NCBI GenBank assembly: GCA_014763895.1
Contig: JACXUM010000018.1
Span: 1-36,002 of the forward strand
Direction of reading: 5' to 3'
Length of the DNA stretch: 36,002 bases
Origin: Campylobacterales bacterium
GTDB lineage: Bacteria; Campylobacterota; Campylobacteria; Campylobacterales; Sulfurovaceae
The position numbers and the translations under genes are program-made. Each line of letters begins with the position of its first letter. Position 1 is the first letter of the stretch. Of this stretch, positions 4,122-30,624 are shown one piece after another. The notes below the pieces were generated by a model. The model was not told the origin of the DNA. It saw only the letters and a program-made list of their open reading frames with translations, and did no database searches.

Positions 4122-4263
4122 AATGAGGAGTTAGGAGTTAGAAATTAGGAATATCGGTAGGCACTTTTGCAAAGTGCTTTTATTTTTGATATAATCACCC
4201 TGATTTAGTAAAAGTGGAGCCACTGCACCATATACAAAAATTCCTAACTCCTAATTCCTAACT
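4122..4263 (+). repeat. Heptamer-palindrome element, copy B (no ORF)
   Basis: Left arm AATGAGG, AGTTAGG, AGTTAGA, AATTAGG (4122-4149), then AATATCGGTAG, a perfect 7-bp hairpin GCACTTT (4161-4167), loop TGC, AAAGTGC (4171-4177), T-rich tract TTTTATTTTTG, and a right arm of inverted heptamers CCTAACT, CCTAATT, CCTAACT (4243-4263). The order and spacing match copy A; the hairpin stem sequence differs but remains complementary. The interior (about 60 bases) holds no ORF but has a TATAAT at 4188. The element ends 15 bases before the ppk1 start. Confidence 0.75.
4188..4194 (+). promoter_or_regulatory. Possible ppk1 -10 box inside repeat element B
   Basis: GATATAATC inside the element, about 85 bases before the ppk1 ATG. 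If used, the element supplies the ppk1 promoter and its right arm forms the leader. No convincing -35. Confidence 0.35.
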
Positions 4264-4278
4264 TAAAAAAGGGTTTTT

Positions 4279-28041: not shown

Positions 28042-29100
28042 ATGTTGTTTGAACTCTCCCAACTCTTGCATATCAATCTTTTCGGTTACATTACCGTACG
28101 TGCGGGTTTTGCATTTTTTGCTGCTTTCATTTTAACACTTTTGATCATGCCGCGATACCTGGCATGGGCCATTTCAAAAAAAGCAAACCAGCCTATCAAC
28201 AAATATATTCCTGCCCATGAAGGGAAAAAACATACCCCTACCATGGGAGGGGCCATGTTCATTATCGCTTCTTTGGCAGCCACACTCTTCTCTTGCGATC
28301 TATCCAATCTTTATGTATGGGGAGGGATCATCACGCTTTTGGGGTTTGGCTTTGTAGGCTTTAAAGACGATATCGGGAAGATCCTTTCGGGGAACAACCT
28401 TGAGGGGTTGACTCCAAGAGGGAAAATGGCACTTTTGATCCTTATCTCCCTTTTGGTTGCCGGCTTGCTTTTAACTGCCGGGTTCCCGACAACATTCTAT
28501 GTGCCGTTTGTTAAAACGCCTCTCTTTGACATGGGATATTTCGCGATCCCTTTTTGGGTCCTCGTTTTTTTAGCCACGACCAATGCGGTCAACCTCACGG
28601 ACGGTCTGGATGGGCTGGCGACGGTCCCTTCGGTGATTGCGCTTGTTTCTTTTGGGGTTATACTTTATGTCACCGGGCATGCGATCTTTAGCGGCTATTT
28701 GCTCGTACCCCATATCAAAGGAATCGGGGAGATGACCATTATGGCGGCTGCTTTGGCGGGAGGCCTGCTTGGTTTTCTTTGGTATAACTGCTATCCTGCA
28801 GAGGTTTTCATGGGCGATACAGGGAGTTTAGCCATCGGCGGTTTTCTTGCCTACCTTGCGATACTGGGCAAAAGCGAGATCCTGCTTGTATTGATCGGCT
28901 TTATCTTTGTCATCGAAACGGTTTCTGTGATCCTGCAGGTAGGCAGCTACAAGATCCGTAAAGAACGCATCTTCCTGATGGCGCCGATCCACCACCATTT
29001 TGAACTCAAAAAATGGGCAGAGAACAAAATCATCGTACGTTTCTGGATGATCTCATTCCTTGCCAACCTGCTTGCGCTCATTTCATTCAAGTTCAGATAA
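28042..29100 (+). CDS. mraY: Phospho-MurNAc-pentapeptide transferase
   Basis: First membrane step of peptidoglycan synthesis: moves phospho-MurNAc-pentapeptide onto undecaprenyl phosphate, making lipid I. 352 residues, ten predicted TM segments. Conserved Asp pair 109-110 (FKDDIGK), [21 protein letters not shown], and the histidine motif [10 protein letters not shown] near residue 318. The RBS is weak (GAAAGAA). It is followed by murD after 225 bases that hold a repeat element. Confidence 0.97.
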
Positions 29101-29104
29101 AAGA

Positions 29105-29308
29105 TAATGGGTAACGGGCAATGAGCAATGAGCAACCGAAAAAACAATGATCCCTTAAAAGCATCAATGAATAGCTCAAATTGCTCGCCTCTAGCACAAA
29201 GACCGTAAAACAAGGAAGTCTATGAAAAACACCAACCACTCATTACGCATTACGCATTATTCATTACGCATTATTCATTACTCATTACTCATTACTCATT
29301 ACTCATTT
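29105..29308 (+). repeat. Heptamer-palindrome element, copy C
   Basis: Left arm of 7-base units AATGGGT, AACGGGC, AATGAGC, AATGAGC (29106-29133). The right arm is ten tandem inverted units of the form (C/T)(T/G)CATTA (29239-29308), including four with CTCATT at the end. The arms are reverse complements in phase. The interior (about 105 bases) has no clear ORF. The conserved TCGGTA box and 7-bp hairpin of copies A, B and D are not seen, so this is a divergent type. It ends 17 bases before the murD ATG. Confidence 0.7.
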
Positions 29309-29325: not shown

Positions 29326-30624
29326 ATGAAACCGACACTTTTTGGATACGGACTGACCACCAAAGCCATTGCCCATGCTTTAGGGGGAGGGTGTACCTTC
29401 TTTGATGATACGCTCAAAGAGCCTTTTACGGATGAAGAAGGCAATCACATCCTTCCGTCACACCTTTTCGACCCTGATGCCAGCAGCTTGGAAGTGACAA
29501 CACCTAGTCTTCCTCCACAGCATCCGCTTATTAAAAGTGCAAAAAACCTTTTAAGTGAATATGACTACTTTCTCGGTAATGAGCAATTAGCGGCGAGTAG
29601 CGAGCAGCCAAAAACAGAAGTATCGCAAAGCGATACATACCGAAACTCCTCACTCCTCACTCCTCACTCCTCACTATCCAAACCTTTCACGATTTGGATC
29701 AGCGGCACCAACGGCAAAACCACCACCACGCAAATGCTTACCCATCTTTTGAAAAAACGCGGAGCCCTCAGCGGCGGCAATATCGGTACGCCATTGGCCC
29801 AGCTCGATCCCGATGCCCCTATCTGGGTGCTTGAAACCAGCTCTTTTACCCTGCATCATACCACTAGTGCATCGCCTGATATCTATCTCCTGCTTCCCAT
29901 CACACCCGATCACCTGGACTGGCATGGTACTGCGGAGGCTTATGAAGCAGACAAACTAAGACCTCTTTTGACGATGAAAGAGGGGGAACTGGCCTTGGTC
30001 CCAAAAGGGCTGACCCTGCCAAAAACGAATGCCTATGTCGTAGAGTATGACTCCAACGAATTTTTGGCGGAGTATTTCAACCTTGATAGTTCAAAAATAC
30101 GTTTCAAAGCGGCTTTCCTGCAGGATGCGCTGTTAGCGCTTGCCGTAGCCAAAGTACTCTTTGATGAGGCGGACTATGAACTGATGAATGCTTTTGCGAT
30201 TGATGCCCACCGGCAGGAAGAGTTCAAAGATGCCAAAGGCAGACTCTGGGTGAACGACTCCAAAGCGACCAACATCGATGCCACAGTCCAGGCCCTCAAA
30301 GGCTATAGCGGCAAACATATCCACCTCATCCTCGGAGGCGATGACAAAAGGGTCGACCTGACGCCGCTTTTTGAAAGCATGGCGCCTCTTCCTATCACGA
30401 TCTACGCCATCGGGGCAAACCAGAACAAACTGCTCGATCTTGCAAAAACATTCGGCATCGAAGCGGTTAACACACAGACGATCGACAAAGCCGTTGAAGC
30501 GATCGACAAAGTACACACCCACGAAAGCATCGCCCTGCTCTCTCCTGCCGCAGCGAGCCTAGACCAGTTTACCTCCTACAAACACCGGGGCGAGACCTTT
30601 ATGGAGCTGGTCAAGACACTCTAG
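29326..30624 (+). CDS. murD: UDP-N-acetylmuramoylalanine-D-glutamate ligase with in-frame insert
   Basis: Adds D-Glu to UDP-MurNAc-L-Ala in the cytoplasm. 432 residues. ATP-binding ISGTNGKTTTTQM at about 125-138, the central-domain LLPITPDHLDWHG, and WVNDSKATNIDAT and the C-terminal LSPAAASLDQFTSYKHRGETF. Residues about 84-118, between SEYDYFL and KPFTIWISGTNG, are low-complexity (SSLLTPHSSLS) and are encoded by a heptamer-palindrome element; in the family these flanks are nearly adjacent, as I remember it. The reading frame continues and no catalytic motif is disturbed. ATG 29326 is preceded by CGGAG. Confidence 0.95.
   Translation: MKPTLFGYGLTTKAIAHALGGGCTFFDDTLKEPFTDEEGNHILPSHLFDPDASSLEVTTPSLPPQHPLIKSAKNLLSEYDYFLGNEQLAASSEQPKTEVSQSDTYRNSSLLTPHSSLSKPFTIWISGTNGKTTTTQMLTHLLKKRGALSGGNIGTPLAQLDPDAPIWVLETSSFTLHHTTSASPDIYLLLPITPDHLDWHGTAEAYEADKLRPLLTMKEGELALVPKGLTLPKTNAYVVEYDSNEFLAEYFNLDSSKIRFKAAFLQDALLALAVAKVLFDEADYELMNAFAIDAHRQEEFKDAKGRLWVNDSKATNIDATVQALKGYSGKHIHLILGGDDKRVDLTPLFESMAPLPITIYAIGANQNKLLDLAKTFGIEAVNTQTIDKAVEAIDKVHTHESIALLSPAAASLDQFTSYKHRGETFMELVKTL
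29578..29675 (-). repeat. Heptamer-palindrome element, copy D, in frame inside murD
   Basis: Read on the minus strand this has the same order as copies A and B: four perfect AGTGAGG units, AGTTTCGGTAT, a perfect 7-bp hairpin GTATCGC-TTT-GCGATAC, TTCTGTTTTT, then inverted heptamers GCTCGCT, ACTCGCC, GCTAATT, GCTCATT. On the murD strand the CCTCACT repeats (29648-29675) contain no stop codon in any frame. AATGAGC at its left end is the same unit found in copy C 450 bases upstream. Confidence 0.8.

Follow-up and report, generated by a model that had tools for sequence, protein, structure and literature searches.

An intact murD gene carries a repeat element in its reading frame

The locus raises the question of how a DNA repeat comes to lie within the reading frame of an essential enzyme, and whether it arrived there once or repeatedly. 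The window, that is, the whole 36,002-nt stretch of DNA analysed, belongs to a Sulfurovum-type genome (Campylobacterota), and the closest named relatives of its MurD are found in Sulfurovum bins. The murD gene encodes a UDP-N-acetylmuramoyl-L-alanine--D-glutamate ligase of 432 amino acids without an internal stop, and the product matches the TIGR01087 murD equivalog with 303.6 bits (cut-off 212). It starts 225 bases past the end of a 352-codon ORF (28042-29100), which we take to be a putative mraY, judged by its C-terminus. Codons 84-118 of murD are occupied by a repeat element, exactly where an earlier note on this DNA had placed it. A broken frame or a murD pseudogene, which that note had weighed against its own reading, was not found. 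Both a pseudogene and an extra copy are ruled out, since the gene is the only one of its kind in the source genome (G000), is intact and matches TIGR01087; the protein downstream of the insert is conserved. The features of the gene and its insert are as follows.

29326-30624, + strand: murD, intact, single copy, TIGR01087 match
29575-29679, + strand: in-frame repeat element, codons 84-118 (GNEQLAASSEQPKTEVSQSDTYRNSSLLTPHSSLS), in the linker that joins the N-terminal to the central (ATP-binding) domain
29575-29609, + strand: left arm of degenerate heptamers (TAATGAG CAATTAG CGGCGAG TAGCGAG), stop-free in frame
29620-29636, + strand: core hairpin GTATCGC-AAA-GCGATAC, 7-bp stem and 3-nt loop, stem pairs covarying
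29637-29641, + strand: ATACC motif adjoining the hairpin (GGTAT on the opposite strand), present in most copies (26 compared by eye)
29645-29675, + strand: right arm, perfect ACTCCTC x 4.4

The insert of 105 nt is composed of a worn heptamer arm, a 7-bp hairpin, ATACC and 4.4 copies of ACTCCTC. The perfect lag-7 run reaches 24, against a longest run of 10 among 100 dinucleotide shuffles of the window, and a scan of the window at periods 3-6 and 8-13 revealed no array comparable to the one of period 7. The element had been described as a full palindrome built from heptamers. The repeat unit stands, but pairing of the arms is rejected for this copy: the left-arm heptamers are worn and belong to a different series from the right-arm ACTCCTC, and the core hairpin alone folds (folding z of -7.4 for the 37-nt core and -1.2 for the whole insert). 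A GTAG or CGTC tag is absent from the foot of the hairpin, which is flanked by AGAA and ATACC.

Because the Mur ligase middle domain (Pfam Mur_ligase_M) starts at residue 125, the insert lies in the linker between the N-terminal and ATP-binding domains. AlphaFold modelling with 40 MurDs gave a mean pLDDT of 84.7, and the only stretch below 50 comprised residues 90-117. The predicted fold agrees with solved structures of MurD (TM about 0.76 against 5a5f of E. coli). As the earlier note had anticipated, the insert is modelled as a loop, namely a disordered one between domains.

The MurD linker is filled by different repeats across the genus

We then compared the SEYD-to-IWI linker across 70 MurD genes from this genus. 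Extra codons at the site number 0-2 in 33 genes and 3-40 in the other 37. The segment measures 16 codons in 31 genes (SEYDYFAKEMPFSIWI and similar), 17-18 in two and 19-56 in 37, and orthologues without the insert thus exist (33 MurDs with a segment of at most 18 codons). The near adjacency of the flanks expected in relatives was confirmed, SEYDYF and MPFSIW being 3 codons apart in 31 of the 70. An alignment of 40 MurDs shows linkers of 4 to 42 residues, no length change at all across residues 119-360, and length differences of 2 residues within the first 83 and of 17 at the C-terminal end; large length variation is therefore restricted to the linker, the C-terminal end aside.

The fillings are diverse. 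Classes were assigned by inspection, in a sample in which many genomes are metagenome bins, and comprise about 23 inserts of heptamer type, 10 of GTAG-REP type and 4 of neither. A perfect period-7 run of at least 16 nt occurs in 21 of the 37 inserts, and a run of any other tested period (4-12) in only one. An insertion unique to the source genome is rejected, as its insert recurs nearly letter for letter in G033 and G007. Other MurDs carry the hairpin unit with other heptamers (AGGGAGC, GGGAAAA, ACTCTTC, CTACCTC and ACTCATT) or bare arrays, e.g. AACGCTC x 4 in G022. GTAG-type REP pairs occupy the site in G002, G004, G046 and G050, in the REPIN-like form of GTAG, then a hairpin, then a second unit inverted; the pair of G004 reads GTAGGGTGCTGTCCCCCGACGGCACC ... 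GGTGCTGTGAGGGCACAGCACCCTAC and is slightly changed in G002. The inserts of G045 and G048 have a worn tag, and an automatic rule placed these two in the heptamer group on the MurD tree. Lone REP-like hairpins are found in G040, G044 and G049. In G023, a REP-like pair lies beside an apparent remnant of a heptamer unit, and in G047 (locus L017) the right heptamer array is broken in frame by a stretch of approximately AGAAGGTGAATTGCGAAGCAAGAGAAACTCCCCTGGGGGA; these two inserts suggest nesting or replacement of repeats. Two genomes of a sister genus, both rich in core copies, show CATCTTC-type repeats at this position of MurD. Judged from these many different repeats, the MurD site appears to be used recurrently and not to have been filled in one event.

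The alternative is one ancient insertion that produced a long-linker MurD allele, followed by loss and interspecies exchange, the contents then changing by drift and slippage. Filled and empty states are scattered on a MurD core tree built with the linker removed: the empty state requires 12 changes (23.6 when shuffled), the starred branches alone force 4, and the empty G065 is nested among the filled G015, G020 and G064. The residue after PF tracks the state of the insert, being T in 36 of 37 filled and 3 of 33 empty MurDs, which supports some shared descent of the long alleles and hints that long and short alleles are partly inherited or exchanged blocks, as opposed to many fresh insertions. 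This T/S residue lies in the first codons of the central domain, and either shared history or a role as structural partner of the linker could explain it. Consistent with exchange, the right ends TTGAAAGGCAAAAGCC and CTATCCAAACC are each common to distant species, and in the inserts of G000, G033 and G007 the left arm resembles that of G010 and G070, and the right half that of G055 and G053. However, exchange of longer flanks along with the insert is not evident, the test giving only a weak effect, and GTAG-REP pairs and heptamer-hairpin units are separate families that drift would not convert into each other. We regard a single ancient origin as possible but doubtful.

Other proteins carry repeats at recurrently used sites

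The earlier note had proposed looking for SSLLTPH-type repeats in other proteins, and they exist. The source genome has further in-frame copies of the element, one in PriA and one in a PF14907 nucleotidyltransferase; the peptide search that yielded the first cases used one reading frame, and a frame preference is not to be judged from it. Elsewhere, an SdhA/FrdA-like (succinate dehydrogenase/fumarate reductase-type) flavoprotein carries it, and AnmK of G063 carries the unit.

PriA and the flavoprotein were read in 17-18 genomes. The PriA site is the linker from the 3'BD domain to the helicase core, and its content changes with almost every species read: the heptamer element fills it in G000 and the same element reversed in G063, with heptamer arrays (including GCGTTCA) in G003, G012 and G053, remnants in G007, G010 and G033, GTAG REP pairs in G001, G036, G037 and G055, and CGTC REPs in G065. 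Nothing recognisable was found in the PriA linker of G017, G027 and G077. The flavoprotein contains the element in G040, G047, G055 and G062 and other heptamers in G053 and G074, and is empty in at least six genomes (G000, G002, G010, G027, G033 and G036). This mixture in both proteins is the same as in MurD and counts further against a single ancient MurD allele. The occupation of the MurD site by unrelated repeat families, and the matching picture in PriA and the flavoprotein, show repeated arrival of new material.

In 0.8 Mb of unselected sequence from G053 and G055, 33 arrays were counted, seven of them inside long ORFs; protein family matches were obtained for six of these ORFs (MurG, CysQ, CysN, RfbB, a sugar epimerase and a D-cysteine desulfhydrase-like enzyme). 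MurG, AnmK, CysN, CysQ and RfbB are single cases. In G053, the genes for CysQ, CysN, RfbB and the sugar epimerase are clustered on one strand within about 8 kb (L349:9459-17646), each with an in-frame array and each with a different heptamer.

Inserts are in frame and stop-free

With 7 and 3 being coprime, every frame of a heptamer array runs through one and the same set of seven codons; an array of three copies or more is therefore either stop-free whatever the frame or closed in each of them. Tandem ACTCCTC has no stop in any of the three frames, whereas GAGGAGT and AATTAGG have stops in all three, which bears out the claim that the insert in this murD lies in the only stop-free orientation. 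In MurD, the absence of stops from the pyrimidine-rich strand accounts for the length of the right arms; the left arms consist of T-free heptamers (GGGAGCA, GGGAAAA), or are short, or worn. All 37 filled MurD inserts are in frame and stop-free, and the PriA and flavoprotein inserts read are likewise multiples of three without stops. Over 107 nt, the intergenic copies of G055 are open in 23% of forward frames and 9% of reverse frames. With intergenic copies mostly closed, the coding copies represent a filtered set.

These data bear on whether the inserts reach the protein. Untranslated inserts, removed by ribosomal bypass or RNA processing in the manner of mitochondrial byp elements or introns, would fit the core hairpin and the position in essential genes. 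Bypass needs neither frame nor openness, yet the coding copies are filtered for both while their intergenic relatives are closed in most frames, which argues against it; we consider bypass very improbable. The insert appears to be translated, as far as its reading frame tells.

Adaptive inserts are a further alternative, in which the arrays tune linker length or stability in MurD, PriA and others, or act as phase-variable switches. The same sites are indeed reused in essential enzymes, and slippage could alter the length of an array. On the other hand, contents and lengths vary widely among sister species (4-42 residues), the presence of an insert follows no visible pattern, and a slip of one heptamer frameshifts an essential gene, making a poor switch. 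Such a role is improbable in our judgement, and the inserts would be nearly neutral for enzyme function.

The heptamer-hairpin unit and its spread

The repeat family occurs both intergenically and in frame within conserved genes. Copies of the core pattern were found in 37 of 78 genomes of the genus, with up to 26 per genome, and a control pattern gave almost none. The three free stem pairs covary over 143 listed copies (Fisher p 1e-14 to 1e-19, values that overstate independence because the copies share ancestry). In the 26 copies of G055, the unit follows the plan ATAAAA or AGAA, hairpin, ATACCRA, heptamers, or in the opposite direction heptamers, GGTAT, hairpin (7 bp, 3-nt loop), TTTTAT, and some copies consist of two inverted units with the heptamers outermost. 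Two of the 26 lie within conserved proteins (MurD and the flavoprotein), and the others are intergenic or near gene ends. The window itself has further intergenic heptamer units at 1802-2125, 4126-4268 and 29118-29307, the last of which stops shortly before the murD start.

1802-1862, no strand: intergenic unit, AATTAGG x 4.6 - TTTCGGTAT - hairpin GTTTTTC/GAAAAAC
4126-4268, no strand: intergenic heptamer remnants of AGGAGTT/AGGAATT type, flanking a spacer at both ends
29118-29307, no strand: intergenic heptamer element upstream of murD, with a CAATGAG arm at about 29118-29136 and an ACTCATT array to 29307

Two pattern matches elsewhere in the source genome (C35:31995 and C39:3980) were judged to be chance. 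In an order-wide sample, many core copies were present only in G102 and G247 of the sister genus, and outside the family of Sulfurovum the core did not rise above chance. Elements across the wider order were rejected, the few single matches, mostly with unpaired stems, looking like chance.

A Y1 transposase (PF01797) scores above the cut-off in 56 of 78 genomes, with no match in G012, G036, G033 and G037, all of which have copies of the unit. Presence and absence across genomes thus give no support to this enzyme as a required mover. G012 is 100% complete and has 7 copies without a match, so copies can persist in a genome that has no Y1 transposase at present.

Tandem heptamers set this lineage apart. 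The loci fetched via the element contained 107 perfect period-7 arrays of at least 21 nt, with 0-1 arrays at every other period counted (5, 6 and 8-11); in the unselected 0.8 Mb there were 33, against 0-1 at other periods. Near the hairpin unit, perfect arrays peak at 29-33 nt (about 4.1-4.7 units) with many different heptamers. A sharp four-unit ruler is not claimed, as the unselected sequence gives a mild peak with a long tail. Most of the heptamers are without G-tracts, so that the G-quadruplex explanation offered for Xanthomonas and Nostoc, where four units are preferred, would not hold here.

A second class of arrays, 38-136 nt long, was observed in G053 (L348, L350, L353, L359, L363 and L365), with TGCTCAC, GCTACCT, CCCGCTA, TCTACCT and other heptamers. 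Most of them begin directly after a similar sequence of the form AAGCTTCACTTCAAGCAATCTATGCAAAATT; the start point of the array is fixed and the heptamer differs from copy to copy.

Relation to known repeats

Protein-coding palindromes have been described in Rickettsia (RPE-1 and others; Ogata 2000, 2002) and Wolbachia (PMC2229807, PMC3733652). Like the Rickettsia palindromic elements, the repeats described here are small and hairpin-prone, occur intergenically and in frame in conserved enzymes, and encode tens of residues at tolerant places. By this analogy, the Sulfurovum inserts would work like Rickettsia palindromic elements in their mode of action. They differ in having a free-living host of the Campylobacterota and arms made of heptamer arrays, with a heptamer that is not the same from copy to copy; in addition, several unrelated repeat families use the same protein site.

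Intragenic REPs of free-living bacteria are already known: GTAG and CGTC REPs occur in frame, many in DNA repair or replication genes (PMC3733652), and both classes have been reported in Sulfurovum NBC37-1 (Di Nocera and colleagues 2013, PMC3733652). The earlier note had likened the insert to Rickettsia elements in an unrelated group; the likeness holds, and coding REPs had already been reported in free-living bacteria. Some of the MurD and PriA fillings look like such REPs, while the insert of the source genome belongs to neither type, and the main text of PMC3733652 mentions neither murD nor heptamers. In recB of two Xanthomonas, different REPs lie at about one site (PMC3733652); the present case goes beyond this, with different families at the same site in three proteins of one genus.

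Bacterial precedents also exist for dispersed tandem heptamers, both mainly intergenic or over-represented outside genes: TAACTGA in Beggiatoaceae (PMC4679880), and GGGAATC/GGGGAYT in Xanthomonas and Nostoc, with a four-unit preference (PMC4692102). Unlike these, the Sulfurovum heptamers have many sequences, are tied to a conserved hairpin unit, lie in frame in core enzymes and mostly lack G-tracts. The searchable literature, which leaves out most subscription papers (e.g. on cyanobacterial small repeats), holds no description of heptamer-hairpin units translated in core enzymes; the family and the use of the same site in several proteins seem undescribed there.

Proposed course of events and implications

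We propose, with a probability of roughly 0.87, that the insert is a copy of a genus-wide repeat family, and that recurrent insertion and turnover, filtered by selection, concentrate such copies at disordered linkers. Small repeats (a heptamer array, GGTAT, a hairpin and TTTTAT, often with a second arm) would be spread or copied around Sulfurovum genomes, and copies landing in genes would mostly be purged by selection. Those surviving would sit in disordered interdomain linkers, with a length that is a multiple of three and the stop-free strand as sense, and the ribosome would read them as a flexible spacer. An occupied linker may then become a landing pad, in which heptamers undergo homogenisation or exchange, GTAG or CGTC REPs take the place of the insert or nest in it, or the insert is lost. 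As for the source of the diverse arrays, a dedicated templated addition of repeats at a fixed end of the hairpin unit, rather than ordinary slippage, might make them and seed Sulfurovum genomes, the linkers serving as neutral docking sites where families succeed one another; we think this unlikely, though it merits mention.

Most discussion of protein-coding palindromes has concerned intracellular bacteria whose genomes are reduced. The lineage studied here is free-living, and in it nature has run the experiment dozens of times at the same linkers in MurD, PriA and the flavoprotein. Because sister species hold empty, worn and fresh alleles, it becomes measurable how selfish DNA turns into protein, which linkers are tolerant and how fast the contents turn over. 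The inserts also record where essential enzymes naturally permit insertion, and show how working proteins of free-living bacteria can tolerate selfish DNA.
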